Below, piece by piece: positions 2,464 through 45,715 of a stretch of DNA of 45,909 nucleotides. Made by a program: the position numbers and the translations under genes. The stretch is taken from contig QHVM01000108.1 in assembly GCA_003223555.1 (NCBI GenBank), forward strand, positions 1 to 45,909, in the 5' to 3' direction. The DNA is from Acidobacteriota bacterium (GTDB taxonomy: Bacteria; Acidobacteriota; Vicinamibacteria; Fen-336). Below the pieces are notes generated by a model that did no database searches, was not told the DNA's origin, and saw nothing but the letters and a program-made list of their open reading frames with translations. The stretch's first letter is position 1. The number at the start of each line of letters is the position of its first letter.

Positions 2464-2498
2464 GAGGGGCTCTGGAGCGCCGCGGTTTTCTCCATGGC

Positions 2499-10520: not shown

Positions 10521-11978
10521 TCAGCCCTTCCGCATCAGGAGCACGTAAACCGCGAAGGCCACCCCGAAGCCGACGAACCACGCGTAGTCGTAGAGCGGCT
10601 TCAGCGGGGGAACGACGAGACCGCCCCAGGCCAGCGCGCAGCCGAGGAGCGTGGCGGCCACCGCGTTCCCGTTCCATCCGCCGCGGTAGCGGTACGCGCC
10701 GCCGGTCAGGTACAGGTCCTCCAGCTGTAGCCGTTTTCGCCGCACGATCCAGTAATCCGCGATGAGCACGCCCGCGATCGAGCCCAGCCCGCCCGAGTAG
10801 CCGAGCAGCCACGTGAAGATGTAGCCCGAGGGATCGGCCAGCAGCCGCCAGGGCTGCATCAGGATCCCGAGCAACCCGGTGACGAGCCCGCCGGTCTTGA
10901 AGGAGATGAGGCGCGGGAACGCGTTGGCGAAGTCGTTGGCGGGCGAGACGACGTTGGCGGCGATGTTGACGGCCAGCGTCGCCACCACCGCGGTGAACAT
11001 CGAGATCGCCACCACGACCGGCGCCTGGAAGCGGCCGACGAGCTGCACGGGGTCCCAGATCGCCTGCCCGTAGATGATCACCGTGGCGCTCGTGATCATC
11101 ACTCCCATGGCCGCGAACACCGACATGGTCGTGGGCAGCGCCACCACCTGGCCCACCATCTGCTCGCGCTGGCTTCGCCCGAAGCGCGTGAAGTCCGGCA
11201 TGTTCAGCGAGAGGGTCGCCCAGTACCCGATCATCGCGGTCAGCGACGGCACGAAGACCGGGAGGAACTCGCCGAGGGTGGGGAGGCGCCCCGGCTGATG
11301 GAGCAGGGGACCCAGCCCGTGCGCCTGCTTCACCGCCCAGACGAGGAGCACGGTCGTCATCACCAGCACGAAGGGCGCCGCCCAGTTCTCGACCTTGCGC
11401 AGGAGGTCCATGCCTTCGTAGATGATGAAGACGTTGATCCCCCAGAAGAGCAGGAACGAGAGCCACTCGGTCGTGGTGTGGCCGCCGAGACCGGCGCCGA
11501 GGAGGGTCGGCCAGGAAGGCAGCAGGCTGGTGAAGAAGGTGTGGAGGGCCTCGCCGCCGATCCAGGACTGGATGCCGAACCAGCCGCAGGCGACGAGCGC
11601 CCGCATGAGCGCGGGCAGGTTCGAGCCGATGGTCCCGTATGAGGCGCGGGCGAAGACCGGGAACGGGATGCCGTACTTCGTGCCCGGGTGGGAGTTGAGG
11701 AGGATGGGGACGAGCACGATCGTGTTGCCGAGGAGGATCGTGAGCAGGGCCTGCCACCAGTTCATGCCGGTCGTCATGAGCCCCGAGGCGAGCATGTAGG
11801 TCGGGATGCAGTGGGCCATGCTGATCCACAGCGCGGCATAGTTGTAGGTGGTCCAGTTGCGCCGGCTCAGCGGCACCGGCGCCAGGTCGCGGTTGTAGAG
11901 CGGGCTCGCCTCGATCCGGCGGGGGTCGGACAGCTCGACCCGGCCGTCGGGGTGATGGACCTCGGCGGCCTCGGCCAT
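10521..11978 (-). CDS. NCS1-family nucleobase/hydantoin:cation symporter
   Basis: This 485-residue inner-membrane transporter has the NCS1 N-terminal signature NRDLAPVPLSRRNWTTYNY, then WISMAHCIPTYMLASG. It also has CGWFGIQSWIGG, where the Trp and Gln match substrate-stacking residues of Mhp1, and ANVVSPANDFANAFP in the second half. About twelve hydrophobic segments are visible. NCS1 proteins import uracil, thymine, allantoin, hydantoins or purines with Na+ or H+. Given the dihydropyrimidinase and PreA genes on the same strand downstream in the window, pyrimidines or hydantoins are the likely cargo (inference). It is convergent with the lipoprotein gene with only 4 bases between. Confidence 0.93.
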   Translation of the reverse strand: MAEAAEVHHPDGRVELSDPRRIEASPLYNRDLAPVPLSRRNWTTYNYAALWISMAHCIPTYMLASGLMTTGMNWWQALLTILLGNTIVLVPILLNSHPGTKYGIPFPVFARASYGTIGSNLPALMRALVACGWFGIQSWIGGEALHTFFTSLLPSWPTLLGAGLGGHTTTEWLSFLLFWGINVFIIYEGMDLLRKVENWAAPFVLVMTTVLLVWAVKQAHGLGPLLHQPGRLPTLGEFLPVFVPSLTAMIGYWATLSLNMPDFTRFGRSQREQMVGQVVALPTTMSVFAAMGVMITSATVIIYGQAIWDPVQLVGRFQAPVVVAISMFTAVVATLAVNIAANVVSPANDFANAFPRLISFKTGGLVTGLLGILMQPWRLLADPSGYIFTWLLGYSGGLGSIAGVLIADYWIVRRKRLQLEDLYLTGGAYRYRGGWNGNAVAATLLGCALAWGGLVVPPLKPLYDYAWFVGFGVAFAVYVLLMRKG

Positions 11979-19618: not shown

Positions 19619-20743
19619 TCAGGCCCGGGCCGGCTCCGCGTAACCCTCCTGCGGCTCGTGACCGCCCTGGTAGTCGGAGTCGGCCGGCCGGCGGATCTGC
19701 GAGTGGGCCACGATGCGGTCGCGGCGGATCCCGCGGAAGTCCTCCAGCCGCTTCCAGCCTCGGTGGGCGTTCTTCTCCAGGAACTCGCTCATCCCCTGCA
19801 CGAGCCGCTTGATGACGTTGGGGCCGACGGCGTGGTCGAGCATCGCGGCCGTGCACACCTGGACCGTGCCGCAGCCGAGGAGGAGGTAGTTGAGCGCCTG
19901 GTTGAAGTCGGAGATGCCGCCGATGCCGGAGAAGCTCCTCTCGGGGAAGGCCCTCGTCATCTGCGACATCTTCGCGAGCGACTGGGGCAGGATGGCCGGC
20001 CCGCCCAGCCCGCCGCTCGAGACGTACCCGTCCACGTTCATCTCGAACTCGAGCGTCTCGGGGTCGACGAGCGGGATGGAGGGGAACGTGTTCGAGGAGA
20101 CGACCGCGTCGCCGCCGCCGGTGAAGACCGCGCCCGCCTCGAGGACGATGTCGGTCGTGGAGGGCGTGAGCTTGGCCCATACCGGGACCTTCGCCACCCC
20201 CTTCACGACCTGGGTCACGCTGGAGCAGAGCTTCTGGTCCTTGCCGATGTTGGAACCCATGTCCTCGCGGTCCATGTGCGGGCAGGACAGGTTCAGCTCG
20301 AGGCCGTCCGCGCCCTGCTCCTGGCAGGCGGTGGCGAGGCTCCGCCAGTGGTCCAGCTCCTTGTCGCTGCCCGAGCCGGCCATGATCGAGGCGATCAGCA
20401 CCCGGTCCGGGAACGCCTTCTTGATGCGGCCGATGCGCGGGACCCACCAGTCGAGCGTCTTGTCGGAGATGAGCTCCCAGTTCCAGGAGGACTGCAGCAC
20501 GCCGCCGCGGCCCTTGTTCATCGACGAGACGCCCAGCTCCGGGTAGTAGCGCAGGAACTTCGTCTTCGGTCCCGCGACGTTGACGACCGGATGGAGGCCG
20601 ATCGTCTTGGTGACGACGCCGCCCCAGCCCGCCTCGAAGGCCCGCACGATGTTGCTCTCCGACTCGGTGGGAGGGGCCGAGGAGAGCAGGAACGGGTTCG
20701 GGAACTTGATCCCGGTGAACGTGGTGGACAGGTCGACGCTCAT
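19619..20743 (-). CDS. preA: Dihydropyrimidine dehydrogenase catalytic subunit, PreA-like, without ferredoxin domain
   Basis: The 374-residue protein starts at ATG 20743 behind GGGAGGA. It has the FMN TIM-barrel of dihydropyrimidine/dihydroorotate dehydrogenases: FPNPFLLSSAPPTES, GWGGVVTKTIG, VLIASIMAGSG, the catalytic LELNLSCPHM with C154, KLTPSTTDI, and SGIGGISDFNQA. E. coli PreA (411 residues) and mammalian DPD carry two 4Fe-4S clusters at the C-terminus. Here the protein ends about 60 residues after the barrel with no CxxCxxC motif, and the next gene converges 4 bases away. Electrons must come from elsewhere, or it is a DHOD-like offshoot. It likely reduces uracil or thymine to the dihydro form. 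Confidence 0.87.
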   Translation of the reverse strand: MSVDLSTTFTGIKFPNPFLLSSAPPTESESNIVRAFEAGWGGVVTKTIGLHPVVNVAGPKTKFLRYYPELGVSSMNKGRGGVLQSSWNWELISDKTLDWWVPRIGRIKKAFPDRVLIASIMAGSGSDKELDHWRSLATACQEQGADGLELNLSCPHMDREDMGSNIGKDQKLCSSVTQVVKGVAKVPVWAKLTPSTTDIVLEAGAVFTGGGDAVVSSNTFPSIPLVDPETLEFEMNVDGYVSSGGLGGPAILPQSLAKMSQMTRAFPERSFSGIGGISDFNQALNYLLLGCGTVQVCTAAMLDHAVGPNVIKRLVQGMSEFLEKNAHRGWKRLEDFRGIRRDRIVAHSQIRRPADSDYQGGHEPQEGYAEPARA

Positions 20744-20870: not shown

Positions 20871-20876
20871 ATGATC

Positions 20877-21746
20877 ATGATCCGGGAGAGACAGCGGTCG
20901 GCGGTCTCCGGCTGGCTGATGCTGCCGGTCCTGCTCGCGCTGGCCGCGGCGGCCCTGCGTTCCCTGTTCCTGGCCTTGCAGGCGCAATCCATCGTGTGGG
21001 TGCTGGCGAGCGTCCTGGCCGAGGTCGCCACGGTCGTCGGCCTCGGCGGGTTCTTCGTGGTCAACCCGAACGAGGGACGCGTGCTGCAGCTCTTCGGCGC
21101 CTACCGCGGGACCGTCCGCACGGCCGGCCTGCGGTGGGCGAGCCCGTTCTTCACCAAGAAGGCCGTCTCGCTGCGCGTGCGCAACTTCGAGAGCGGAAAG
21201 CTCAAGGTCAACGACCTCGACGGCAACCCGGTCGAGATCGCCGCGGTCGTGGTGTGGCGGGTCGTCGACACCGCCGAGGCGGTCTTCGAGGTCGACAGCT
21301 ACGAGGACTACGTCAAGGTGCAGACCGAGTCCGCGATCCGCAACCTGGCCACCCGCTACCCCTACGACACGCACGACGACGAGAAGGTGTCGCTGCGCGG
21401 CAACACCGCCTCGGTGGCCGGCGACCTCAAGCACGAGATCCAGGACCGGCTGGCCAAGGCGGGGGTCGAGGTGATCGAGGCCCGGATCAGCCACCTGGCC
21501 TACGCGCCCGAGATCGCCGCGGTGATGCTCCGGCGGCAGCAGGCGGCGGCCATCATCGCCGCCCGGGCCCGCATCGTCGAGGGCGCGGTGGGCATGGTCG
21601 ACATGGCCCTCCAGCTCCTGTCCAAGAGCAACGTCGTGCAGCTCGACGAGGAGCGCAAGGCGGCCATGGTGAGCAACCTGCTCGTGGTGCTGTGCGCCGA
21701 CCGCGAGGCGCAGCCGGTCGTGAACACGGGCACGCTGTACCAGTAG
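20877..21746 (+). CDS. SPFH/Band 7 (stomatin-like) membrane protein
   Basis: The protein has 289 residues from ATG 20877, six bases after AGGAGG; ATG 20871 is too close to the ribosome site. Two hydrophobic helices near the N-terminus ([14 protein letters not shown] and [20 protein letters not shown]) are followed by an SPFH domain: [46 protein letters not shown], and the helical stretch [20 protein letters not shown]. Stomatin-type proteins oligomerise in the membrane and organise microdomains or regulate proteases. The RHH gene follows 6 bases later, so they form an operon with the GATAT-box promoter. Confidence 0.9.
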
Positions 21747-22335: not shown

Positions 22336-24570
22336 CTAGAGGTCGATGGCCACGACCTCGTGGTCGAGGATGGAAGGCACGGCCAGCTCCACGTACGTGG
22401 CCGTGATACGCGTCTCCGGCGATCGCTCGCTCACCAGCAGGTGCACGCCCTTGACGGTCCGGCCGTCCGGGATCCGCACCCGCACGCGCTGCTCGCCGAC
22501 GGGCAGCAGCTCCCGGAGCGGGCCCTTCATCATCATCGGGTTGGTGAGGTTGACGAGGTGCACCGTCATCGAGTCGCGCTGCCGCCACACGGTGACGTCG
22601 ACGATGCCCGGCCCGGTGACGACCGCCGGGGGCTCCTCGTTCACCGCCCACGTCACGGCGTTGCGGAGGAGCCGGCCGTGGTCGACCGCCAGCACCTCCC
22701 AGAACGTGCGATCGACGTCCCACGGGAAGTAGACGATGCGGCTCCGGCCGAGGTCCCGGACGTAGACCCCGGGGATGCTCGTGTGCGGCACGCGCGGGAA
22801 GACCTTCTCCATCGGCAGGTCCGGGTATGAAGGAATCAGCGTGAGCGGCGCGGGGGTGTACGGCTCGCGCGGCGTGACGTCCACGCGCCAGACGCCGTTC
22901 ACGATGCGTGCCGCGTCCTCGAGCCCGGCCAGGATCGCGTGGTGACGGCCCGTGGCCGGGTCCTTCTCGACCGTGAGGTAGGAGTTCCGCATCGGCCCCT
23001 CGACCCGTCCGGCGAGCCGCGCCCCGAAGAGGTCGCCGAGGCCGAAGTCGGGCCGCCGCGCGCCGGCCTCGTCGTACAGCGACGTCTCGAACGTCGCGAT
23101 CAGGCTGCCCCCGCGCTCCACGTACCGGCGCAGCTCGTCGCACTGGCGGCCGGACAGCGCGGCGACGTTGGGCAGGACGAGCAGCTTGAAGCGGCCGACC
23201 CGGTCGGGATCGACGAGCCCGTCGTGCACCATCTCGAAGGGAATGCGCGCCTCGACGAGCGCCTGGTAGAAGCCGAGGATGTGGTCCTCGACCTTCTCCC
23301 GGGCGCGCTCGCCGCCGTAGAAGGCCGCCGTCTGCTGCGAGTAGACGAGCCCCACCCGCGCCAGCGGCTCCTCGTTCCGGAGGTAGCGCTCGGTGCGATG
23401 GTGCCAATCGTAGATGCGGGCGACCGGCTCGAGCCACCGCCGGTCGTGGAGCGTTCCGCAGAACTTGGTGAACCACGGGCGCAACCCGTTCGCCGTGCCC
23501 TCCGCGACCCACAGCCGCATCTCCGGCTCGCTCTGCACGGAGTCCTTCCAGCGATACACCTCCTCGAGGCCCACGCTGAAGATGCCGCCGATCGCCTTGG
23601 CCCCGAGCGCGGCGCGATACTCCTTGGCCGCCTTGCCGTTCTCCCAGGGCGCCATCAGGCCCCGCCGGGCCTGGCGATCGGCGAAGAGAGTCGGAGCCAG
23701 CTCGCCGACCGTCTTCATGTCGAGCAGGCTGAGCGCGCCGCCCCCGGTGTTGGGGATGAAGCACACGTTGGGCTTGATCGCCCGGATCGCGTCGGCCCAC
23801 CGGCGCCACAGCTCGAAGAGGCGCTGCTGCTGCCAGGAGATGAACGCCCGCCGGGCGGGGTCGCCCGGATCGAGGGTGCGTGGCAGCTCGAAGCCCGTCC
23901 CCGCCCGGAAATTGCGCCGGCAGTGCTCGCAGTAGCACATCCCCGAGCCCGACCACCGGTTGCTGAAGATGCCGTCGACGTCGTAGCCGGACACGATCTC
24001 CTCGTGCACCGCGGTCATGAACTCGAAGTTGTACGGCCCGAGCGCGCACGTGACCCACATCTCCGGCGAGGCCCAATGGCGCCGCGGCCGGCCCTCGGCG
24101 TCGACCGCGATCCAGTCCGGGTGGGCCTCCCGGACGTCGTCGTACGTCGCGTGGGGATCCGTCCGCGCGATCACGACCATCCCGAGCTTCCGGCACCCGG
24201 CGAGGAGCTCGCCGAACGGGTCGCGGTCGCCCATCCAAGCGCTGCGGTGGTGCAGCGGCACCCGGGTCGGGTAGTACGCGACGCACCCGCCCGCGCTCAG
24301 GCAGGCGGCGTCGGCATGGACGCGCTCGAAATAGTCCAGCCAGAACTGCGGGTCATATTGGCCCGGATCGTCCTCGACCAGGGTGAGCTGGGCCCAGCGC
24401 ATCGGCCGGTCGAACACGGATCGCGCGGCTGCTCCCGCTTTGTCGGGGAAGGGCTGGCCGGATTCGGGGCCGGGGCCGAGGGCCCACGCGGGAGCCACGG
24501 CGAGGCTGGAAGCTCCGGCCAGCGTTCCGGCCAGGAACCCGCGGCGGGACAAGCGTCCACCATCGGCCAT
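22336..24570 (-). CDS. Tat-exported glycoside hydrolase-like protein (TIM barrel plus beta-galactosidase trimerisation-type domain)
   Basis: The 744-residue protein starts at ATG 24570 with GGAGG upstream. The leader has a twin-arginine signal, SRRGFLAGTLAG. A TIM-barrel-like region follows (MRWAQLTLVEDDPGQYDP, DVDGIFSNRWSGSGMCYCE, with PNTGGGALSLLDM further on). Next comes a class I amidotransferase-like/beta-galactosidase trimerisation domain (RVGLVYSQQTAAFYGGE, KLLVLPNVAALS, ECGG-like YVERGGSLIATFETS) and a beta-rich C-terminus. Such proteins are annotated as glycosidase-like and often found in Acidobacteriota and Planctomycetes. The catalytic acids are not certain and the substrate is unknown. 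A wrecked paralogue lies immediately downstream. Confidence 0.75.
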   Translation of the reverse strand: MADGGRLSRRGFLAGTLAGASSLAVAPAWALGPGPESGQPFPDKAGAAARSVFDRPMRWAQLTLVEDDPGQYDPQFWLDYFERVHADAACLSAGGCVAYYPTRVPLHHRSAWMGDRDPFGELLAGCRKLGMVVIARTDPHATYDDVREAHPDWIAVDAEGRPRRHWASPEMWVTCALGPYNFEFMTAVHEEIVSGYDVDGIFSNRWSGSGMCYCEHCRRNFRAGTGFELPRTLDPGDPARRAFISWQQQRLFELWRRWADAIRAIKPNVCFIPNTGGGALSLLDMKTVGELAPTLFADRQARRGLMAPWENGKAAKEYRAALGAKAIGGIFSVGLEEVYRWKDSVQSEPEMRLWVAEGTANGLRPWFTKFCGTLHDRRWLEPVARIYDWHHRTERYLRNEEPLARVGLVYSQQTAAFYGGERAREKVEDHILGFYQALVEARIPFEMVHDGLVDPDRVGRFKLLVLPNVAALSGRQCDELRRYVERGGSLIATFETSLYDEAGARRPDFGLGDLFGARLAGRVEGPMRNSYLTVEKDPATGRHHAILAGLEDAARIVNGVWRVDVTPREPYTPAPLTLIPSYPDLPMEKVFPRVPHTSIPGVYVRDLGRSRIVYFPWDVDRTFWEVLAVDHGRLLRNAVTWAVNEEPPAVVTGPGIVDVTVWRQRDSMTVHLVNLTNPMMMKGPLRELLPVGEQRVRVRIPDGRTVKGVHLLVSERSPETRITATYVELAVPSILDHEVVAIDL

Positions 24571-25138: not shown

Positions 25139-28100
25139 CTACGGCACCACGAAGTTCGTGACCTGCGCCCGTTCTGCGGCACTCATGCCGGCCAGGGCGT
25201 TGGCATCGGTCAGGTTCACGAGCGCCTCGGCCTGCGATTGCGCTCCGGCGGTATCGGTGAGGCCTCGCTGCACCGCGAAGTGCATCACGATCGCGGTTCC
25301 ACCGGCGGGAACCGTCACGCTCCACCGGTAGAAGATGTCGTCGTTGCCGTTCGTGAACTGGACCGCGCTCAGGCCGGTCGGGGCGCCCGGGCCCTCGAAG
25401 ACGTGGGCGAGCGCGGGATCGCAGCAGAAGCCCTGCTGGTCGGTCACCGCGAAGCTGTTAGCCGTCAACGACGGCGGCACGACGACGCGCGTCGAGCTGT
25501 CGGAGCCGAGGTTGCTCTCCACCTGAACGGTCACGGTCTGGTTGGCGGCCGTGGGGTTGGACAGGATCTCCAGGTAGCGCGCGAAGCCGCCCCCGGCGGG
25601 CACGAACACCTTCCGGGTCACGCTGAGCCCGCTCATGCTCGCGGAACCGATTGAGATCTCCCGGCCCCCGTCCTCGAGCCGCCCGAAGGAGAAGCAGGGG
25701 AAGAACTGGCCATTGATCTTGAGGAAGTACGCGCCGTCGTAGGCGTCGTTGAGGCTCCGGCTCACCGTGCCCCCATCGTTCAGTTGACCGGTGCAGTCAA
25801 CGTCGTAGCGGAAGCCGTCAGCCCCGTCGAGGTTGAACCTGAAAAACGCGATGGGCTCGAGCGTCACGTCGATGGTCGCCGGCGTGCCTTCGGTGAGCGT
25901 CCCCTCCGCCGAGCCCATGCGCCGGGAGTCGCTCGGGTCGCGGGCGGACACGCTCACCGTGCCGACCGGGATGCCGCTCGCCTCGTAGTGGCCCGTCGCG
26001 TCGGCGGTTGTGCTGTGGCTGAAGAAGCCCAAGGGCCCGCTACCGCCCATGTTCTGCAGCGTCACCGGGGCGCTCGCGACGGGCGTCACGCCGTCCGCGG
26101 CGAAGATCGTGCCCATCACGGTGCCGGTGGCGGGGAAACTCAAGTCGATGGTGGCCGTGTCGCCGTCTGCCGCGAGGGTTCCGCCGGCGGCCGCCGTCAG
26201 TGCGGTGGCGCTGTCCCTGGCCTGGACCGTGAAGTCTCCGAGGGCGACGCGCTCGAAGCGGTACCCGCCCTGGTCGTCGGCCTGGCCGAAGCGGTCGAAC
26301 GGCAGGCCGGAGCTGGTGAGGGCGACGTCGGCGAAGGGCACCGCCACCCCGGCGGCATCCCGCACCGTCCCGGTCACCGTCCCCGAAGCCTGCAGCAGCA
26401 CGTCCAGGTCGACCGGCACCGCGACGTCGGCGACCGTGCCGGTGGCGGTGCCGCGCAGACCGGAATTGCCGTCCTGGGCGGTGACCGTGAAGCTGCCCAC
26501 GCCCGCGCCGAACACGCGGTAATGGCCGCCCGCATCCGTGAAGCTCGCATAGAACGTCCGGGATCCCTCGCCACTACCCTGGGTGACGAAGACGTTGGGG
26601 AAGGGTACTGTCGTCGTTCCATCCGAGAAGAAGACGGTGCCGCGCACCACCGAAACAGGCAGCGTCAGGTCGAGCGTGATCAGCTGGCCTTGCGCGGTGA
26701 ACGCCCCTGTCCCCTGGACGGTGGTTTCGAAGTCAGGTGAGTAGGCCACGATCCGGAAGCCCTGGTCTCCCGGATTCAGGCCGGCGAACCGGTACGACCC
26801 ATTCCCGTCTGCATAGAGCGCGGCGAGAGAGGCGCCGGTGGCCACGTCGTAGGCCTGGAGGTAGGCGTTGCTGACGCCGGTCTGCCCGTCGGCCGCGAAC
26901 ACGGTGCCCTGCACGTCGCCCGAGAAAGGAGCGGTGATGGTGGCGAGGATGGTGCCGGCGTCGTCGGCCGCGGTCACGACGCCGGACGTGCTGCCGGCGA
27001 AGGCTCCGTTGCCCGGGTCATACGCCTGGAGGCTGAACGCGCCCTCGGGGACGTTGGAGATGAACAGCATCCCGTCGACGTCGGCCGTCCCGGCGAAGAA
27101 GGAGCGCGCGCTGTCCTGGATGTACACGTAGGCCCCGCTGTAGCGCGAGCCGTCGCCGCGGAGCACGGTGACCTGGACCGTGGCCGTGGCGGGCAGCGTG
27201 ACGTCTACCGTGCGTGTCTCCCCGTGACTCGTGAGGACCACTCCGGTGACGTCGCGGAAGAGGGCGCCGTCGCTCGGGTGGTAGGCCCGGACGGTCAGGC
27301 TGGGACCGACCGGCACCTGGCTGAACGTGTAGGTGCCCGCCGCGTCGGTCTGGGCGAAGCGATTGATGCCCGGGCCGAACACCTGGACGCTGGTGAAGGG
27401 CGCCGGCGTTCCGCGCGCGAAAGCAACCTGGCCGGTGATCGTGCCGACCTGGGGCAGCCGGATGTCGGCCACGACCGTGTCGTCGCGATTGGGCACGTTG
27501 CCGGTGGCGCTTCCCAGCACCTGCGCGTTCGCGTCGAGCGCGGACGCGGTGAAGCCACCGAGCGCGCCGAAGGGTACTCCGGTGACGGTGTAGAGCCCGT
27601 CGGTATCGGTGGAGACGTTGGCCACCAGCCGCGGCCCGTTGCCCGTGCTCAGCCGGACCCTTGTGTTGGGGAGCGGAGTGACGCCGTCGCCCTGGTACAC
27701 ATGGCCGGTCACCGTACCACCCGGGAACGGCTGCGGCACGACCGTCGTGCCGTTGACGGTGACCGTGATGCGGTAGCCGCCGGTGTAGGCCTCGGCATAC
27801 GCAGTGGCCACGACCACGTGCCGGCCGGACTGCGTGAGGGTGCCCTGGAAGAGGGAGTTGAGGTTGCCGCCGCTGTCGTCGTTGGCGCCGAGGAAGGATC
27901 CGTCGGGGTTGTAGGCCTCGACGAACGGATCAGGCAGGGCCGGGTAGCCGCCGTTGGCGAGCTTGTCCTCGGCCACGCGGACGCTGTCGCCGGCGTTGGC
28001 GGTGAAGACCCACAGGTCGCGCTCGCCCCGGAAACGCAGGACGCCGAGGCCGGCCTCGACGAGGTTGACCGTCAAGGACACCGTCTGGCCGTCCTGCGCG

Positions 28101-28723
28101 GCGGTGATCGTGCCCGAGACCTCGCCCAGCAGGCTCGTGACGGGATCGATGGCCTGCACGGTGAAGGCTCCCTCCGGCACGCTGGCGATCACGAGCTGGC
28201 CGGCGCTGTCGGTGGTCCCGACGAAGCGATCGCCGGTCGCGTTGTGGACGGTGACCTGCACGGAGGCCATCGCGGGCAGGGTGAGGGCCACCGGCACGAT
28301 CCCGCCCACGGCCGGCATGCTCCCGCTAGCGTCGCGGAAGACGGCGAAGTTGACGGGATGGAACGCCCGTACGGTGAAGGCGCCGGTAGGCACGTTGACG
28401 ATGTCGAGCCGCCCGCTCGCGTCGGTCGTGCCGGCGAAGCGGAAGAAGCCGCGCGCAGCCTCGAGGATGTTGACCTGGACGCCCGCGGCCGGCCCGCCGG
28501 CGGCGAAGCTCACCTGGAGCCGGACCGTTCCGAGCGCGACGAGGGTCAGGTCCTGGGTCGTCGTCTGGTCCTGGCTCACCGTGACCACGGCCGACGACGG
28601 CACGTTCGTGTTCGGCTCGTAGGCGGTCACGGTGAAGCTTCCCACCGGCACGTCGGAGAAGGTGTAGCGGCCAGTGCCGTCGGTCTGCGTCGAGCGGCTC
28701 GCGCCCGACCCGTTGAGGCTCAT
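25139..28723 (-). CDS. 3' part of split giant CnaB-repeat surface protein
   Basis: The frame opens at an internal ATG ([12 protein letters not shown]) in the middle of a CnaB/carboxypeptidase-regulatory unit that begins in the upstream frame, so this is the continuation of the gene at 28326-36557. It has about 1,194 residues of repeat units (for example [18 protein letters not shown] and [19 protein letters not shown]). One unit near 27700-28000 resembles a pre-peptidase C-terminal-like domain ([20 protein letters not shown]). It ends with the third copy of the unknown module ([20 protein letters not shown] to AQVTNFVVP). On its own it has no signal peptide and would not be exported, so it is probably a fragment unless the frameshift is an assembly error. 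Confidence 0.8.
25142..25840 (-). repeat. Module copy 3 (C-terminal)
   Basis: A roughly 230-residue segment shares the core of copies 1 and 2: GREI...[33 protein letters not shown], and an ending TNFVVP like IRNFAVP. It is the most diverged copy and contains extra cysteines (FCCDP). Confidence 0.7.
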
Positions 28724-31700
28724 GAAGACGTTGGCCGGTTCCGGACACGGCGCCGGTCGGCTGGATGGTGACGTTGGCGACCGTGACCTGTCCCGCGGTC
28801 ACCGACGCGGAAGTGGTGCCGGTCAAGCTCGAGCCCTGGGGCACGAACGCGATTCCCGTCACCGTGTACGACCCGGGCGGCACGACCGTCAGGACGTAGC
28901 TTCCGTCGGTCGCCAGGTTGGCGGACTGGAAGACCGGGCCCGAGGCTTGCACCGCGCCCGAAGTCACGGCCGCGCCCGTGTGGCGGCGCACCGTGCCCCG
29001 CAGCACCCCGGTATTGCTGAAGACCGCGTCCTGGGCGGCGCTCGTCTGGCCTTCAGGGAAGCTCCCCAGCGCGTCGGGAGCCTGGAAGAACGTCTGGGGA
29101 TGGAACGCCTGGAGGACGAAGCCGTCCACGGGGATCGGCCGCGAGGAGCCGAAGTCGTTGAATGTGGAGGTGAAGGAGAACGAGCCGTCGGCGCCGGCAT
29201 TCAGGGACTGCGTGCGCCCATAGAAGATGTTGCGGCTGCGGAAGCGCACCAAAGCGCCGGCCACCGGTGTGGTCCCGTCACCCGCCAGCGCGCGCCCGCT
29301 CACGGCGCCATTCAGCGCGGGCAGCGGCGTGAGGGCGCTCGTCCCGTCGGAAGGCACCGCGAAGTTGCGGATCCAGCCGATCTCCTGCGGGCTGAGGCCG
29401 GTCAGCGCCTCGGGCGGGAGCTGGACCAGCCGCTCGGCCGACGCCCGAGCGGCCACCCGGCTCGTCTGCTGGAGAGCGAAGTGCAGGAAGGCGACCGTCC
29501 CTCCGGCGGGAATCGTCACGCCGTTCCAGCCGTAATGGAGCTGGCCATAGTTGCCGGGCGTCGCGAAGCTCGCCTCGCCGGCGCGCAAGGGCGCGCCCGG
29601 ACCGTCGAAGGCGAAGGCGGAGGCGGGCAGGGTGGAGACGAGGAACGGATCGCCGTCGTTGCCGTCGTCGACGGCCACCCAGCGGTCGGGATTGAGAGGA
29701 TCGGAGACGTTCAGGGTCGTGTCGCCGCTGGAGGTGGCCACCACGCGAGGTGGCCCGTTGAACTGACGGAGGTTGCTCAGCAGATGCACGTCCACCGTGA
29801 CGGGATCGGCCGTGGGGTTGCTGAGGATCTCCAGGTAGCGGGCGAAGTAGCCGGTCCGCGGCACGAACACCTTGCGGGTGACGTCGAGCCCGGCCAGGCC
29901 CGTCTGCCGGAGCGCGACCTCGCGGCCCGACTCCTCGGTCGTCCCGATGGTTCCCCCGGTGAACCGGCTCGGCGACCCGCCGCTCACCACGTCGAGCAGC
30001 AGTCCGCCCCGGTTGGAGGCGAAATCGCCCTCGAAGAGGCTGTTCGTCCCGTCGGGGATGGAGCCGTCGCCCTGCAGGTTGAAGAAGGAGTTGTTGGCGT
30101 CGTAGAAGTTCACCGGCAGGTTGATGGCGTTGTCGAGGAGCTGGATGTTGGCCGTCACTTGCTGGCCGTCGCTGTCGATGCGTCCCGACGTCTCCCCGCG
30201 GGTCTGGGCGCTGGCCGCCGTGGCGACAAAGCCGCCGACGAGCACACCGTCGATCTCGAAGCTTCCCTCGCCGTCCGTAGTCGCGGTGAAGAAGCCGCCC
30301 AAGGCGTTCGTGCTCTGGACCGTCACTCCGACTCCCGGCGCGGCCGTGCCGTCGGGGTTCAGGACGTGGCCGATCACCGAGCCGAGGCCGACGAGCTTCA
30401 AGTTGCGGACGACGACGTCGCCGTTCTGGGCCACGCCGATGCCGGTCTCGCGGGCGCGGAGCCGGCCGTTGGGCACGGCCTCCAGCGTGTACGTCCCCAG
30501 GGGCACCGCATTGAAGCGGAAGCTGCCGTCGGCGCCGGACGTCACCTCGCGGAAGAGCGCGTAATTGCTGAGGCGGATGGGCACGCCGACGACGGGACTG
30601 CCGCTCGGTGCGAAGACCCGGCCGAGGACGGAGCCAGCCGGCTGCAGGTTCACTGTGACGTTCGATGTGGCCCCAACCGCCACGCTGCCGCTGGCCGACC
30701 CGCCGAGCAGCGTCACCGGGTCGGTGGCCGAGACGGTGAACGGCCCGGCGAGCACGCGCGGGAAGGTGATCGTGCCGTCGGCTCCCGTGGTCCCCGTCTG
30801 GATGTCGTAGAACACCGAGCTGAAGAGCGTGACGCTCGCTCCCGTGATCAGGTTGCCCGAGGCGTCGCGCACCGTCACCACCACACGGCCCTGGCCGTTG
30901 AGGGTGACGTTGACCGTCCGGACCTCGCCGTTGACGCTCACCTGGTTGCTGGCCCGGCCGCGGTCGCCGGTGGCGAGATCGGTCACGTCGAGATTGAACG
31001 CGCCTACGGGGACCGGGTCGAACGAGAACCGGCCCTGGAGATCCGTGGTCACGCTCGACGGCACTCCGGGCAGGAAGCGGTCGATGCTCACCACCGCGCC
31101 CGGCACCGGCACCGCACCGCCGAAGCGGAAGACGGTGCCGTTGACCGTGCCCGAGGCGAAGAGCGTCACGTTGAGGGTGAGCGTCTGGCCGGACAGGCCC
31201 AGGCTGCCCGCGGCGCGGCCCCGGAGCCCGCTGGCCGGATCGGTGACCTGCACCGTGACGTTGCCCGGGTTGACGTGGTCCACCCGGTATCGGCCGTCGG
31301 CGCCGGTGGTGGTGGTGAAGGTTCCGTTGCTGGCCACCAACGTCACCTGGGCCCCGCTCACCGGCTGGCCGCTCGGCAGCGTCACGAGGCCCGCCGCGGA
31401 GCCGCCCACGGCCAGGATGAGGTCGACGTCCGTCGTCTGGTCCTCGATCACCGTGGCGACGAGGCTGGCCGCGGTGTTGCTCGCGGGATCGAAGGTCTCC
31501 AGCGTCACGGGCCCGACCGGAACGTCCGAGAAGACGAACCGCCCGCCGGTGTCGGTGTCGGTGGAGCGGGACAGGCCGCCGGCACCGCGGAGCTCCACCC
31601 TCACGAACACCACCGCCTCGCCCGAGCCACGGTGCACGAACCCGCGCACGATTCCCGTGGGTCCGATGGTGATCTCGGTCGGGCTGATCTCGCCGACGCG

Positions 31701-34700
31701 CACGACGGTCGAGGTGGCGGCGATGAGGGGCGTGCCCTGCGGATGCGGCACGGTCGCGGTGAGGAGGACACTGCCCGCGGGCAGGCCCGTGAACACGTAC
31801 GTGCCGCCGGTCCCGATGGGAACCGGGACGTCGCGGAGGAGAGCGTCGCCGCTCGCCACGACAGTGCCGGAGCTGACCACCGCCTGGTTGAACCGGCGCA
31901 CGGTGCCGGTGACCATGCCGGTGTCGCGGAACACCACGTCCTGGACGGCGGTGGTCAGGCCCGGCTCGAAGTCGCCGGACGCCGGCGGTGACGTGAGCAG
32001 CGTCTGCGGATGGTCCGCCCGCAGCGTGAACGGGGCCACCGGCACTGCGACCGAGGTCCCGCTGGTGTTGAAGGCGGCCGCGAGGTGGAAGGCGGCGCTG
32101 CCGTCAGCGCTGAAGAAGAACGTGCGCCCGAAGAGCGGGTGGTCGCTGCGGAAGCGCACCCCTGCGCTCGGCACCGGAGTGACCGCGTCAGAGGCCAGCA
32201 CGTGGCCGTCAACCGAGCCCGTAAGCGCCGGCAGCGGAGGCACCGGGCTCTCCCCGTCGGGGGGAGCCGCGAAGTTCCGGATCGCCGTCCGCTCCTCCGG
32301 GCTGAGGCCGGTCAGGGCCTCCGGCGGGAGTTGAACGAGCCGTTCGGCCGAGGCCTGGGCCGCCGCCCGGCTGGTCTGCTGCGACGTGAAGTGCAGGAAG
32401 GCGACCGTCCCACCCGCGGGCACGGTCACCTGGCTCCACTGCTCGGTGAGCCGGCCGAAGCGGTTCGTGAAGTCGTCGACGAGCCGAGCCGAGGAGGCAC
32501 CCTGGGCGCCGCTCGGGCCATCGAAGACGTGAGCCACCGCGGGCAGCGTGTTCACCAGGAAGGGGTCACCGTCGTCGTCGTCGTCCACGACCAGCCAGCG
32601 GTCCCGGGCGTCGGGGTCGGACACGTCCAGGTTGGCGTCGCCGCTCGAGGTCGCGATCACCCTCGGCTCGCGGTCGAACGTGAACCCGTTCTGGACCTTC
32701 CGGATGAACCGGAAGTTCGTGGTGAGTCGCACGTCGACGGTGACGGGCGAGGCGCTCGGGTTCGAGAGAACCTCGAGGTACCGCACGAAGTATCCGGGGG
32801 CAGGCACGAACGCCTTGCGCGTCACGTCGAGGCCGCCCAGACCCGACTGCACGAACGTGATCTCCCGTCCCGATTCCTCGGTGAGACCGAGACCGCCGGT
32901 GAACCGCTGGGGGGCGCCGTCCACGACGATGTCGAGGATCGAGGCCCCGCGGTTGCCGGCCGAGTCGCCCGCGAAGACCTGGGCCGTGCCGTCCTGGATG
33001 GAAGCGCCGTCGCGCAGGAAGTAGGAGAAGTTGCTGGCGTCGAACAGGTTCGTCGCCGCGAGCAGGAGGTTCACGGTCACGCTGGCGCCGTCGGAGAGCA
33101 GGGTCCCGGTGTTCTGGGCGAAGAGCTGGCCCTGCGGGCCCTGACCATTGGCGGTCACCACCACGTTGCCGACCGGGACGCCGCCGACGGAATAGAAGCC
33201 GTTGAGGTCTGTCTGGGCTCCGAAGCCGCGGCCGAAGCCGGGGTTCTGGCTCACCACGTAGACGCCGATCCGGGGAGCTGGCGAGCCGTCGGGCAGGAAC
33301 ACCTGGCCTTGCACGGTCCCCACTCCGACCAGGGTCAGGTTGCGCGTCACGAGCTGGCGGTGGCTCGTGAGCGCGACGCCCGTGGCGCGGGCCCGCACGC
33401 TGCCCGCCCCGTCGACGGCGGCGAGCGTGTACGAGCCGGTGGGGACGATGTCGAAGCGGAACGATCCGTCGGGCCGGCTCGTCGTCTGGCGGAACACGGG
33501 CCCGGTGATCTGGACGGTCATGTTCGCCACCGGTGTCGTGCCGTTGGGAGCGAACACGACGCCGGCGATGCTGCCGGCGGGCTGCAGGTGGACGGTCACG
33601 CTCTCGGTGGCATCGGCCGCCACGCTCCCCGACGCCCCGCCCCGGAGCTGTGTCGCCGGATCGACCGCGGACACGTCGAAGGAGCCCGCGAGGATGCCTT
33701 CGAACGTCACGGTGCCGTCGCTCTGGGTGACGCCCGATTGGCCACCGTCGAAGATGGTCCGGCCGATGACGCTGACCTGGGCCCCGGGCACGAGGTTCTC
33801 GGCCGCATCGCGCACCGTCACCACCACGCGGCCGAGGCCGTTGAGCGTGACGTTGACGGTGACGACCTCGTCCTGGTGGCCGACCGATCCTCCCGCTCGC
33901 CCGCGGTCACCGGTCGCTGGATCAGCGGCATCGATCGTGTAGCCACCGACGGGCAGGAGATCGATCCGGTAATGGCCGGCGCTGTCGCTCACGTCGCCCA
34001 GCCCCGCCTCGAGGGCGACCACCTGGACGCCGGGCGCGGGAACGGTTCCTCCGTGCCGGAACACCGTTCCCGTGATCGTCCCCGACGCGAGCAGGGTGAT
34101 GTCGGCCGTCACGACCTGGCCTTCGTGCTCGACGGTCCCGCCGGCGCGGCCGGCCAGCCGCTCGAGCGCAGCCCGGGCGATGACCTGGAAGCCTCCCAGG
34201 AAGACGTTCGGGATCAGGTAGCGCCCGGCGCCGTCGGTGTGGACCGTGAAGGACCCGCCGAAGATGCTGAAGCTCTGGAAGCTGACCGAGGCGTTCGCGG
34301 CGGGGTTGCCGCTGCCGTCCCTGACCAGCCCCGTGACCGAGCCCCGGGCCAGGAACGTGACGTCCGCGACCACGACCTGGGAGGTCGCAGTCAGGTTGCC
34401 GGTGGTGCGGCCGTGATTGCCTGCGGAATCGACCGCGTCCACGGTCACCGTGCCCAGGGACACGAAGTCGAAGGCGTAGCGGCCGGCGGGGTTCGTCTGG
34501 GTAGTGAGGCCGCCCAGGGTCACGGTGACGCCGCCGCCGACCGGGGTCACGCCGTCGCGGCCGAAGACCATGCCGACGACGCTCCCCCACGGACCGAGAC
34601 GCAGATCGATGTTGGCCGAACCGTCGAGCGGCAATGACCCCGTCCCGCGGGCGCGCAGCAGGGTGCGCGGGTCGAGAGCGGTGGCCACCAGCGTGCCCGT

Positions 34701-36557: not shown

Positions 36558-37357
36558 GGCTTCCCTGCCTTGCGCCGGGCCTCCTCATCCCATTGGATGA
36601 GGTCGAGTCGCGCCATCTCGCGGATGTCGGGATCCGGGTCGGACCTCGCCATCGTCTCCACGACGGGGCGGTACGTCGCCAGCGGAGCACCCTTCACGAC
36701 GGCGGTCGGGATGTTGATCAGGGCTTCCCGGCGGATCCTGGGGTCCGCATCCTTGGCCAGCGCCAGCAGCCGGTCCACGGGATCGATGAGGATGCCGACC
36801 TGGCGACCCTGGAAGGGGACGAACGGCACCAGGCTGGCGATGCTGAGCAGCTTGAGCTGCGCATTCTCGCCCGCGGTCGCCTCGGCCACGAACCGATATC
36901 CGGCCGGCTCGTTCAACTCGGCCAGGCGCGCGGCCAGGTAGGTACGGCGGTGCGGCTCCGCCGTTTCCATGAGTTCCTTGAGGGCGGTCAGCCCTTCCTG
37001 GTCTCCCAGCCGCGCGAGGGCCAGCGCCGCGGTCTCGCGTACGAGCCGCTCCGGGTCGCTCTGGACCACCTGCTTCAGGATCGGTCGCGAGGCCTGGTCG
37101 CCGCGCAGGCCCAGGACCTCGACCGCCATCCAGCGCACGCCGAGGTCCGGGCCCGAGCGTGCGGCCCCGCGGAGGGAGGCCAGGTCCGTCTTCACTCCTT
37201 CCCGCTTGAGCATGCTCTCCAGCTCGACCCACGGCTCCGGCCTGCCCACTCGATCCGCTCCACTCGCGGCCCGGTTGCCGCCCACGACCCCCAGCGTCAT
37301 GCCGATGCCGCCGAGAGCTGCCAGAGCCTGGGCGAGCCAGCGACCTCTCACTTGCAT
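36554..37357 (-). CDS. Exported HEAT-repeat protein
   Basis: The protein has about 267 residues. An N-terminal hydrophobic leader ([20 protein letters not shown]) precedes HEAT/PBS-lyase-like helical repeats ([62 protein letters not shown]). ATG 37357 overlaps the previous gene by 10 bases. GTG 37351 is an in-frame alternative that would give a GTGA overlap with the TGA at 37350-37348, as at the next junction. The stop overlaps the GTG of the giant protein gene. HEAT arrays bind other proteins, so it may assist assembly or export of its giant neighbours (inference). Confidence 0.82.
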
Positions 37358-42223: not shown

Positions 42224-43519
42224 TCATGGCCGCCTCGCCACCTCGGCGAGCGCCTTGTCGAGGACGTCGGCGGCCTGGTCCGCGTCCTCGGTCGTGACCG
42301 TGAGCGGCGGCGAGATCCGCAGCACGTTGCCGTAGAGGCCGCCCTTGCCGATGATGAGGCCGTGGTCCTTGGCCGACTCCATGACCGCCGCCGCGGCCTG
42401 GGGGGCGGGTTCCTTGGTCTGGCGGTCCTTCACCAGCTCCACGCCCTGCATGAGGCCCATGCCGCGGACCTCGCCCACGAGCGCGTGCTTCTCGCCCAGG
42501 CCATCGAGCCGGGAGCGCAGGTGGCCGCCCACCACCGCCGCGTTGTCGGCCAGGCGGTCCTTCTCGATGACGTCGACGACCGCCCGGCACACGGCCATCG
42601 TCACCGGGTTGCCCCCGAAGGTGGCGATGGTCGAGCCCTTGAACGAGTCGGCGACCTCGGCACGGGCGACGGTGGCCCCGATGGGGTGGCCGTTGCCCAG
42701 GCTCTTGGCGGCGACGATGATGTCCGGCTTGACGCCGTACTGCTCGATGCCGAACCACTTGCCTCCCGTGCGCCCCCAGCCGGTCTGGACCTCGTCGGCG
42801 ATGAAGAGCGCGTCGTGGCGGCGCGCGATCTCGGCCACCCGGGGGTAGTAGTCCTTCGGCGGCGTGATGAAGCCGCCGACACCCATGATCGGCTCACCGA
42901 TGAAGGCCGCGGGCCGTCCCGAGGTGGTCGTCCGGATGACCTCCTCGACATCCTGCGCGCACGCCGTCCCGCAGCTCTCCGGCTTCAGGCCGAGCGGGCA
43001 GCGGTAGCAGTAGGGCGCCATCGCGTGGCGGATCGACCCGTCGTGCACGCCGCCCAGCCGCCAGTTGGCATGCGCGGTCAGCGACATGGAGAGCATCGTC
43101 CGGCCGTGATAGCCGTGGCGGAGCGCCACCACCTCCGTGCGCTGGGTGTAGACGCGCGCGGTCAGGATGGCGGTCTCGATCGCCTCGGTGCCGCTGTTGG
43201 TGAAGAAGCTCTTGGCCGGCTTGTCCCCGGGGAAGATCTCGGCCAGCTTCTCGGCCAGCTCCACGATGGGGATCGTCGGGAACAGCGTCGAGACGTGCTG
43301 GAGCGTCCGGGCCTGCTTCTCGAGGGCCGCCACCACCCGCGGCTCGCAGTGGCCGAGGGCGACGGTGACGATGCCGCCGAAGAAGTCCAGGTAACGCTTC
43401 CCGTCCGCGTCCTGCAGCCATTTGCCCTCGCCGCGAACGAAGGGCAGCGGCTCCTTGTAATAGGGCGAGAGGCCGTAGAGGTACTTGCGGTACTTCTCGT
43501 TGATCTCGGCTCGGTTCAC
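42224..43519 (-). CDS. Class III PLP aminotransferase (AGXT2/beta-alanine transaminase-like)
   Basis: The 431-residue protein starts at GTG 43519 with AGAGAGG upstream. It has the class III fold: FFTNSGTEAIE for the phosphate cup, FIADEVQTGWGRTG with D242 for the pyridine nitrogen, and the Schiff-base lysine K272 in VAAKSLGNGHPIG. The length is typical. It belongs with the omega-amino acid transaminases that move the amino group of beta-alanine or beta-aminoisobutyrate to pyruvate or glyoxylate. Four cysteines at 171, 174, 183 and 187 form a C-x2-C-x8-C-x3-C cluster. In context it takes the product of the beta-ureidopropionase and hands the semialdehyde to the aldehyde dehydrogenase. Confidence 0.9.
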   Translation of the reverse strand: MNRAEINEKYRKYLYGLSPYYKEPLPFVRGEGKWLQDADGKRYLDFFGGIVTVALGHCEPRVVAALEKQARTLQHVSTLFPTIPIVELAEKLAEIFPGDKPAKSFFTNSGTEAIETAILTARVYTQRTEVVALRHGYHGRTMLSMSLTAHANWRLGGVHDGSIRHAMAPYCYRCPLGLKPESCGTACAQDVEEVIRTTTSGRPAAFIGEPIMGVGGFITPPKDYYPRVAEIARRHDALFIADEVQTGWGRTGGKWFGIEQYGVKPDIIVAAKSLGNGHPIGATVARAEVADSFKGSTIATFGGNPVTMAVCRAVVDVIEKDRLADNAAVVGGHLRSRLDGLGEKHALVGEVRGMGLMQGVELVKDRQTKEPAPQAAAAVMESAKDHGLIIGKGGLYGNVLRISPPLTVTTEDADQAADVLDKALAEVARRP

Positions 43520-43626: not shown

Positions 43627-44235
43627 CTAGCGGGGGAACTCGATCTGGGTCACCTGGTGCTCCGGCGTCTCCCCGCACTCCACCAGGCTCGTATAGCTGA
43701 GCAGGCAGACGTCCATCTTGGTGCCGGTGAGGCTCTCGCCGCGCAGGTCCAGGCTGCGGGCAACGACCATCATCTTCTTGTCGACCGAAGGCGCCATCAG
43801 CTCGCGGTGGGGGGGATCCGGCTTGAGGGACGTCGTCTTGGCACCCTCGACGAGCTTCAGCGCGTGGGGCGACGGGACCTTGACCGTGCGTGTCTCGCCA
43901 TCGACATCGCGCTCGCGCTCCACGGGCTCGTACTCGATTTCCAGCGTGCTCCCGCGCAGAGGCACCATCTTCTTTCCCACCCACAGGTCCGCGCTCGAGC
44001 GGCGGCCCGCGGTGCCCTCGACCTGCGAGCCTCCCTGGGGCCAGGAGAAGTACTCGTAGGAGAGCGTCCACTGCCGCAGGGGCACGCTGCTGCCATCGGC
44101 GAAATGCACGACGATCGGCGGCCGTTCGACGCTCTCCTGCGCGGCGCAGAGCGTCGTCCCCGCCAAGACGGCCAGGGCCGCGAAGACCGTGCTAGTACAT
44201 GCTCGACTTGCGTGCCTGACCGGTGTAGTCGACAT
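43627..44235 (-). CDS. Small exported protein of unknown function
   Basis: The 202-residue protein has a signal peptide (TVFAALAVLAGTTLCAAQ) and a beta-rich mature part (IVVHFADGSSVPLRQWTLSY, MVPLRGSTLEIEYEPVE) with two cysteines near the C-terminus. No family is recognised. ATG 44235 lies inside the 3' end of the aldehyde dehydrogenase gene, overlapping it by 44 bases in another frame. No later start keeps the signal peptide. It sits between the aldehyde dehydrogenase and aminotransferase genes on the same strand, so it is probably co-transcribed with the pyrimidine-catabolic block, although its role there is unclear. Confidence 0.7.
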   Translation of the reverse strand: MSTTPVRHASRACTSTVFAALAVLAGTTLCAAQESVERPPIVVHFADGSSVPLRQWTLSYEYFSWPQGGSQVEGTAGRRSSADLWVGKKMVPLRGSTLEIEYEPVERERDVDGETRTVKVPSPHALKLVEGAKTTSLKPDPPHRELMAPSVDKKMMVVARSLDLRGESLTGTKMDVCLLSYTSLVECGETPEHQVTQIEFPR

Positions 44236-45715
44236 AGACCGTCTTGACCTCGGTGAAGAACTCCAGCGCCGTCGGCCCCTGCTCCCGGGGACCGACGCCG
44301 GTGGCTTTCGTCCCCCCGAAGGGAAGCTGCGCCTCGCCGCCGGGAGTGCCGCTGTTGATGTGGACGATGCCGGCCTCGATGTCGTCCACGAAGCGGAAGA
44401 CCGACGAGGCGTCGCGGGTGAAGATCGAGGCCGACAGCCCGTAGCGGACCTGGTTGGCGGCGGCGAGCGCTTCTTCGAACCCCTTCACCCGGATGACCGA
44501 TACCACGGGCCCGAAGATCTCCTCCTGGGCGATCCGCATCGTCGGGGAGACGTGGTCGAAGACCGCGGGCTCCACGAAGTGGCCGTGGGCCAGGGCGCCC
44601 TCCTCCAGCTTCCGCCCGCCGCCGCACAGCCGGGCCCCCTCTTCCTGCCCGATGGCGATGTACTTGAGGTCGGTCTCGAGCTGTGAGCGGTCCACCGCCG
44701 GACCCATCTCCGTCGCCGCGTCGAGGCCGCTGCCCACCCTGACCCTCTTCGCCCGGGCCACCAGGCGCTCGACGAAGGCATCCGCTATACCCTCCTCGAC
44801 GACGACCCGCGACGTGGCAGTGCAGCGCTGGCCGGTCGACCCGAAGGCGCCCTGCGCGCTCGACTCCACGGCCAGTTCGAGGTCGGCGTCGGAGAGGACC
44901 ACCACCGGGTTCTTGCCTCCCATCTCGCACTGCACGCGGGCCATGCGGCGGGCGCCGCGGGAGTAGATCTCCGCCCCCACGTCGTTGCTGCCGGTGAAGG
45001 AGATGGCCCGCACGTCGTCATGGTCGACGAGCGCGTTGCCGACCGTGCCCCCCGACCCCAGCACCATGTTCAGCGCGCCCCGGGGCACCCCCGCCCGCTC
45101 GAAGATCGAGACGACGGCGCTGGCCGTCTCGGGCGTCAGCGTGGCCGGCTTGAAGACGACCGTGTTGCCGCTGACGAGGGCGGGGGCCATCTTCCAGACC
45201 GGGATCGCGACCGGGAAGTTCCAGGGCGTGACGCACACGACGACACCCAGCGGCTGCCGGACGGTGTAGCAGAAGTTGCTCGGCAGCTCGGAGGGGACCG
45301 TCTGCCCGCCGATGCGCCGGCCCTCGGCCGCGATGTACTCGAGGATGTTGATCGTGCGCTGGATCTCGCCCAGCGACTCCTTGACCGTCTTGCCTTGCTC
45401 GCGCGTGAGCAGCCGGGCGACCTGCTCCTTCTCCGCGTCCATGATCGCCATCGCCTTGAACAGGATCGCGCCCCGCCTGGGAGCGGGAGTCGAGCGCCAG
45501 GCCGGCCAAGCCGCCCGCGCGGCCGCCACCGCGCGCCTCGCGTCCTCGGCGGTCGACAGCGGCACCTGGCCCAGCACCTCCCGCGTGTCGGCGGGATTCA
45601 GGTTCGGCGTGGTGCGGGCGGACTCGGAGGCCACCCACTCCCCGCCGATGAAGTTGCGGTAGACCTGGCCGCCGCCCTGGGCGCGGGGATCGGGACGGGC
45701 GCCGGCGGCGCTCAC
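44192..45715 (-). CDS. NAD(P)-dependent aldehyde dehydrogenase (semialdehyde dehydrogenase type)
   Basis: The protein has 507 residues from GTG 45715, which overlaps the TGA of the upstream gene (GTGA). The ALDH signature is complete: [47 protein letters not shown] with the general-base Glu, and [13 protein letters not shown] with the nucleophilic Cys. It also has [13 protein letters not shown] and [15 protein letters not shown]. The C-terminal pattern resembles alpha-ketoglutaric-semialdehyde/succinic-semialdehyde dehydrogenases rather than CoA-acylating methylmalonate-semialdehyde dehydrogenase. In this context malonic or methylmalonic semialdehyde from the aminotransferase is a plausible substrate (inference). 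Confidence 0.93.

Follow-up and report, generated by a model that had tools for sequence, protein, structure and literature searches.

A short PreA-type protein without iron-sulphur motifs in Acidobacteriota: a candidate stand-alone uracil reductase of reductive pyrimidine degradation

Reductive pyrimidine degradation begins with the reduction of uracil. In E. coli, this step is carried out by the PreT + PreA complex (PreTA), which uses NADH and not NADPH (available part of PMC7332683). According to the same part of that paper, PydAc of Clostridium reduces uracil without a FAD/NAD(P)H module; it is fed by ferredoxin and keeps both ferredoxin domains. The survey of bacterial dihydropyrimidine dehydrogenases (DPDs) reported there demanded a ferredoxin domain and could, therefore, not list short forms. 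Plant enzymes without Fe-S clusters, the DHPD/PYD1 of rice and Arabidopsis, have already been published. They have around 400 residues, with an FMN and a uracil site and no Fe-S, FAD or NADPH sites, and their electron donor is left unidentified in the available part of PMC9930899. The recombinant rice enzyme was found to be inactive with both NADPH and NADH, and no partner was found; the authors mention truncation and the tag as other possible causes (same part of PMC9930899). Mutants of Arabidopsis have also been described (PMC2713857, available part). A mechanistic model is provided by the tRNA-dihydrouridine synthases (Dus), in which an FMN barrel with a conserved Cys reduces the uracil ring and NADPH acts directly on FMN (available part of PMC9176250).

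The window, i.e., the whole stretch of 45,909 nucleotides analysed here (contig QHVM01000108.1 of an Acidobacteriota bacterium), encodes a protein of the PreA type (Table 1). Immediately 5' of its ATG lies GGGGAGGA, and on the other side a convergent GT51 ORF ends at 19615 on the plus strand, only 3 bp from the stop. The PreA profile NF006183 matches residues 3-350 of the 374 with its positions 2-329 of 422 and gives 299 bits, which is below the cut-off of 335 bits; other members of the same clade (B, described below) score 285-300. DHO_dh is the sole Pfam domain above cut-off, no Fer4 domain was found in the Pfam scan, and the top hit among PDB sequences lies in pig dihydropyrimidine dehydrogenase (residues 531-820). 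The protein contains five cysteines (140, 154, 173, 291 and 297), and their positions do not allow a CxxCxxC. Both 4Fe-4S motifs of the C-terminal domain of PreA are, thus, absent, with the profile match ending well before position 422, and by Pfam and cysteine positions there are no two ferredoxin domains as in PydAc. In its size and in the absence of Fe-S, FAD and NADPH domains, the protein resembles the plant-type short DHPDs. Two other identities were considered and rejected, namely Dus (PF01207, 15.5 bits against a cut-off of 20.4) and biosynthetic DHOD (TIGR01037, 125 bits against 270). A separate DHOD (L002) is encoded in the genome of the window, with 353 bits for TIGR01037 and 398 bits for NF005574 (cut-off 269).

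In the joint alignment, the protein is identical to pig DPD at S550, K574, N609, E611, I613, N668, S670, C671, H673, K709, N736 and T737. Cys671, which aligns with Cys154, is the catalytic cysteine of the pig enzyme. All 12 are also unchanged in the 49 B rows and the four rows of the A type, another short form; the DHOD L002 departs from pig DPD at E611, I613 and H673. The best of five AF2 monomer models has a mean pLDDT of 85.1 and a pTM of 0.86 (the other four reach 73.8-76.3), with residues 357-369 below a pLDDT of 50, so that the placement of the tail is uncertain. The nearest structure to this model is that of pig DPD (1gth_A, Z 43.2, 4.4 A over 353 residues; 1gt8_C, Z 42.5, 1.9 A over 322 residues), followed by DHODB with a best Z of 36.9; these ranks hold among the best 50 chains, which are all DPD or DHOD and leave other families possible. 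The conserved tail occupies the place where Fe-S PreA runs on into the 4Fe-4S domain. Together with the insertion at residues 58-79, it is peculiar to B and sets it apart from plant PYD1. The sequence-only reading had described an intact FMN barrel with its active-site Cys154, the loss of both 4Fe-4S motifs and a lack of space before the GT51 gene, and all of this is borne out by the above results. It had also named PreT/NADPH as the electron source of the usual enzyme; PreT is right, but NADPH is not, going by the available data on E. coli PreTA (PMC7332683).

Table 1. Features of the short enzyme and of the surrounding pathway genes in the window.
Feature	Position	Strand	Basis
Short PreA-type FMN uracil reductase (predicted), 374 aa, without Fe-S domain; ATG at 20743, stop end at 19619	19619..20743	-	ORF call, PreA/Pfam profiles, alignments, AF2 model
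Codon of Cys154	20282..20284	-	Alignment with Cys671 of pig DPD
Residues 58-79, B-clade insertion with K60, T61, R65	20507..20572	-	Gaps in nearly all Fe-S PreA rows
Residues 341-368, conserved tail (R341, R352, Y358, G361)	19640..19723	-	Alignment, AF2 model
Dihydropyrimidinase (HydA/PydB), 466 aa	16385..17785	-	TIGR02033, 633 bits, cut-off 393
NCS1-family nucleobase:cation symporter	10521..11978	-	TIGR00800, 410 bits, cut-off 353; PF02133
Class III aminotransferase	42224..43519	-	PF00202; no NCBIfam cut-off reached (25 models shown)
Aldehyde dehydrogenase	44192..45694	-	PF00171; no NCBIfam cut-off reached (25 models shown)
Carbon-nitrogen hydrolase, broken off by contig end	45733..45909	-	tblastn, 90% to L011 hydrolase

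The relatives without Fe-S domains form the B clade. Its core, B1, has an identity of 68-94% and is present in Acidobacteria, Gemmatimonadetes, Chloroflexi and one Wallbacteria MAG, while the B2 branch (52-54%) occurs in Rhodobacterales and on a plasmid of Rhizobium sp. ACO-34A (53%). Among 396 genomes of the phylum, 86 have a match at 1e-40 or better, 26 of them with an identity of at least 69% and 60 with no more than 44%. Of the latter, four (G087, G038, G394 and G209) are of the A type; the other 56 are in the identity range of Fe-S PreA, part of these sequences having been inspected. In named GTDB genomes, at least 80 loci were found. Among the matches listed, 18 are at 69-76% (Acidobacteria, Gemmatimonadetes/Gemmatimonadota, Chloroflexi/Chloroflexota, Candidatus Sulfopaludibacter and one Wallbacteria), 10 are at 52-54% (Rhodobacterales), and the remaining 52 do not exceed 43%. 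Two Fe-S motifs each are present in all 52 of these last loci and in none of the 28 short loci listed, two of which have broken frames. Orthologues with the full ferredoxin domain, which the sequence-only reading had named as the mark of a simple truncation, were sought; every inspected relative at 68% identity or more is without an Fe-S motif, and Fe-S PreA was seen only at 44% identity or less to the window protein. The phylogeny which it had suggested gives a single short clade, with genes of pyrimidine degradation as conserved neighbours.

In both trees, the B clade forms one side of a branch, with a support of 100 in the quick tree and 100/100 in the careful tree, the pig and E. coli rows being long branches. 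Residues R341, R352, Y358 and G361 of the tail are common to the clade. The careful tree covers 15 of the 38 B1 rows and excludes L002 and L077. The quick tree contains 31 of the Fe-S rows at hand and is without L006, L021, L029, L035, L088, L089 and L094. Two MAG copies of the short enzyme (L034/L062/L100, from one genome, and L091) have broken reading frames, caused by decay or assembly error. They were excluded from the trees and from row sets A1 (additionally without L006) and A2 (26 short and two Fe-S relatives).

The presence of PreT follows that of the Fe-S domain. Of the 68 Fe-S PreA loci, 64 were found to have a PreT, within 100 bp in 46 of them, as against none of the 61 short loci (46 B1, 11 B2 and 4 A); the four Fe-S loci without it are L076, L077, L081 and also L152, which lies at a contig end. 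This count keeps L062 and L091 as short loci, removes L100 and L094 as duplicates of L062 and L065, and relies on tblastn at 1e-15, with which a GltD-like protein could pass as PreT. The Fisher P for the association ignores kinship, and only a few independent losses can lie behind the counts.

A similar picture emerges for whole genomes. The genome of the window (G000) has no protein with Fer4_20 (PF14691), which is present in 9 of 14 control genomes, and the E. coli PreT query finds nothing in it at 1e-5. Of 50 further genomes, the six free of Fer4_20 all have short enzymes (G002, G003, G304, G079, G038 and G209), G079 giving a partial match in the protein comparison. When a PreT of the same phylum is the query, the matches in six Fe-S control genomes have 40-49% identity and E of 2.8e-76 or better, versus at best 36% and 4.5e-58 in 30 B1 and four A genomes, eight of which (G000, G002, G003, G137, G304, G087, G038 and G209) show no match at 1e-20. 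Most B1 genomes contain some other Fer4_20 protein. A PreT match at 1e-30 is absent in six of the eight named B1 genomes. A PreT-like protein with 38-42% identity is found in four of nine B2 genomes, so B2 can coexist with an apparent PreTA.

Neighbours of the enzyme were compared at 40 loci, including Fe-S loci, as ORFs of at least 40 aa located up to 7.5 kb from PreA, and no redox-partner or ferredoxin family is conserved near the short enzyme. The families that recur in at least three loci include a TonB/carboxypeptidase-regulatory-type protein (7 loci) and one resembling the 2Fe-2S subunit of xanthine dehydrogenase (4 loci, including one with Fe-S PreA), both named by eye; nine more occur in three loci each, and some of these are antisense shadow frames. 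A CBM9-like gene upstream in a sister genus was considered as a redox partner and rejected, as its product is no redox protein.

Of the pathway genes in the window, a curated cut-off is reached only by the dihydropyrimidinase and the NCS1 symporter. From their context, the aminotransferase, aldehyde dehydrogenase and hydrolase would act as beta-alanine aminotransferase, malonic semialdehyde dehydrogenase and beta-ureidopropionase, respectively. The hydrolase of the sister genus (L011) belongs to PF00795, with N-carbamoylputrescine amidase as the nearest NCBIfam model, below its cut-off. At this locus, the hydrolase, aldehyde dehydrogenase, aminotransferase and short enzyme share a strand and a span of 8 kb, other genes being interspersed, and at L013 and L014 the hydrolase, short enzyme, dihydropyrimidinase and permease follow one another head to tail. 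Among the 46 distinct B1 loci, 36 have at least two pathway genes and 31 have a dihydropyrimidinase; six have none of the genes sought, and some of these sit on short contigs. B2 loci share no common cluster, and the dihydropyrimidinase is present in 2 of 11.

Some other features of the window were also observed. A 202-aa ORF without a Pfam match (43627-44235) lies between the aminotransferase and the aldehyde dehydrogenase and has a counterpart in the sister genus (L011, 10499-11113). The divergent neighbour of the short enzyme encodes an SPFH/Band 7 protein (20871-21746), a BLAST relative of which also adjoins the Fe-S PreA of L017 (1116-2039). A 744-aa protein (22336-24570) combines GHL6 glycosyl-hydrolase-like and beta-galactosidase trimerisation domains. 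Very long ORFs are found on the minus strand at 25139-28723 (1194 aa, with tandem carboxypeptidase-regulatory repeats as judged by eye), 28326-36557 (2743 aa) and 37348-42078 (1576 aa). In a 620-aa ORF (1524-3386), the second half resembles class A beta-lactamases, with scores that stay far under the cut-offs of the models (NF033103, 89 against 200 bits); a distant relative of the serine hydrolases is a likelier identity than a resistance gene. Scans for Rfam families and tRNAs in the window were without a match.

In the family to which the genome of the window belongs, 8 of 14 genomes have a match, six with the short and two with the Fe-S form. In the two Fe-S genomes (G004 and G008), PreT and PreA adjoin a dihydropyrimidinase that shares 91% and 87% identity with that of the window, whereas the dihydropyrimidinases of three short-enzyme genomes in the same family are only 84-86% identical to it. 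Since two genera of one family thus hold PreTA next to a dihydropyrimidinase this close to that of the window, the short enzyme seems to have taken the place of the PreT and Fe-S PreA pair. None of the 86 matching genomes has two matches, against a chance expectation of 4.2 shared genomes (P = 0.009); for this count, no more than five candidates were scored in each genome.

The A type is made up of L072 (9228-10325) and L163-L165, with 366 aa and pathway genes around. These loci have no Fe-S motif and no PreT in the locus, and the A-type protein of L072 passes the NCBI PreA cut-off. A provisional version of the Arabidopsis PYD1 sequence was used as a query. Over its residues 51-426, the identity is 52-54% to the A type, 45% to the Fe-S PreA with the best score and 39% to the best B1 match, so the plant enzyme would be nearer to the bacterial A type than to B1; on such a provisional sequence, this likeness serves as a lead. 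The AU test does not reject A and B as one clade, with a p-AU of 0.88 for the quick tree and 0.18 (p 0.177) for the careful tree, in which A stands apart from B in 200 of 200 bootstrap trees. The deep branching of the quick free tree is not relied on, because the constrained tree scored better.

Our main reading, to which we give a probability of roughly 0.65, is that the short protein acts as a stand-alone FMN uracil reductase at the first step of pyrimidine degradation, fed by a housekeeping donor of either kind discussed below. It would stand in for the PreT + PreA complex, with which it shares the FMN barrel, the uracil site residues and the place in the pathway of PreA/PydA2, and from which it differs in having neither the C-terminal 4Fe-4S domain nor a PreT in its locus or genome. 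The protein would bind FMN, and uracil, probably also thymine, would be reduced with Cys154 as the proton donor; the FMN would in turn be reduced by a donor encoded outside the cluster. What points to this role at the level of sequence is the barrel, the residues of the uracil and FMN sites, the conserved short clade, the pathway neighbours and the exchange with PreTA within one family. Against it stand the inactive rice DHPD, the B1 loci without pathway genes, the position of B2 outside clusters, the PreT-like proteins of some B2 genomes and the other Fer4_20 proteins in most B1 genomes. As for the donor, the first choice would be NAD(P)H docking directly on FMN, which we put a little short of an even chance. 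Two points favour it: Dus, which are similar in fold and chemistry, have their FMN reduced by NADPH, and the neighbourhood contains no conserved redox gene. The inactivity of the recombinant rice enzyme speaks against it. The fuller proposal, by which the barrel alone reduces uracil with a hydride passing from NAD(P)H straight to FMN, the Fe-S relay was lost more than once (in B and in the plant-like A) and the bacterial enzymes answer the donor question of plants, seems rather unlikely as a whole.

The second choice of donor, tentative but not far behind the first, is a soluble ferredoxin that would dock at the place of the lost 4Fe-4S domain and give single electrons to FMN, the relay having become a separate, shared protein. 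A DPD fed by ferredoxin does exist in Clostridium (available part of PMC7332683), the genome of the window contains an ORF of 119 aa that has the cysteine motifs of a ferredoxin (Fer4, 2.3e-9), and among the 34 B-specific residues there are six Lys or Arg that could provide a binding site for an acidic ferredoxin (or NADPH). However, both ferredoxin domains are retained in PydAc and neither in the B clade, so PydAc, as described in that part of the paper, sets no precedent for a barrel alone, and the 40 loci compared have no ferredoxin gene conserved near the short enzyme. Another electron donor and a separate ferredoxin were the first two options of the sequence-only reading, and both are retained here. 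It is very improbable that the enzyme depends on a distant PreT-like or GltD-like flavoprotein from another part of the genome, for which many B1 genomes would offer a Fer4_20 protein, with no more than 36% identity to a PreT. The short enzyme has lost the Fe-S domain on which such a partner docks, and PF14691 is missing altogether from G000 and the six further short-enzyme genomes named above (with the partial protein match in G079).

That the gene is merely truncated or decaying is scarcely credible and was rejected: a domain of E. coli PreA and of the Fe-S relatives is indeed missing, but 28 aligned B1 sequences and named genomes from several phyla keep the same length range and tail, the dN/dS against the nearest relative is 0.10 and the short forms make up one fully supported clade. 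Another reaction, either the oxidation of dihydrouracil with O2 or the reduction of another ring, is improbable. Fungal dihydrouracil oxidases of the superfamily oxidise dihydrouracil with O2 (available part of PMC9585004) and are presumably Fe-S-free, judging by their likeness to class I DHOD, and B2 lies outside pathway clusters; yet the neighbours of B1 need dihydrouracil as substrate. The unchanged uracil site, this neighbourhood and the exchange for PreTA speak against the different reaction that the sequence-only reading had listed as its last option, as far as B1 is concerned. For B2, neither a pathway cluster nor an exclusion of PreT-like proteins argues so. This branch (L080, 8001-9107; L101-L110) has the same active site, no pathway cluster and sometimes a PreT-like protein encoded in the genome, and its substrate may be different.

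Returning to the stand-alone uracil reductase, the Fe-S-free enzymes of plants are already known; new here are a bacterial short clade and its exchange with PreTA, neither of which was found in the open-licence literature searched. The finding also bears on annotation. The A type, at 437 bits, would be called NAD-dependent, yet the NAD-binding partner is missing from its locus, while the B type falls under the PreA cut-off and is a 'hypothetical protein' in Rhizobium sp. ACO-34A. How a uracil reductase functions without an Fe-S chain is an open question in plants, going by the available part of PMC9930899. Bacterial short forms that sit in pathway clusters, some in genomes without any Fer4_20 protein, narrow down the candidate donors and would offer a simpler test case.
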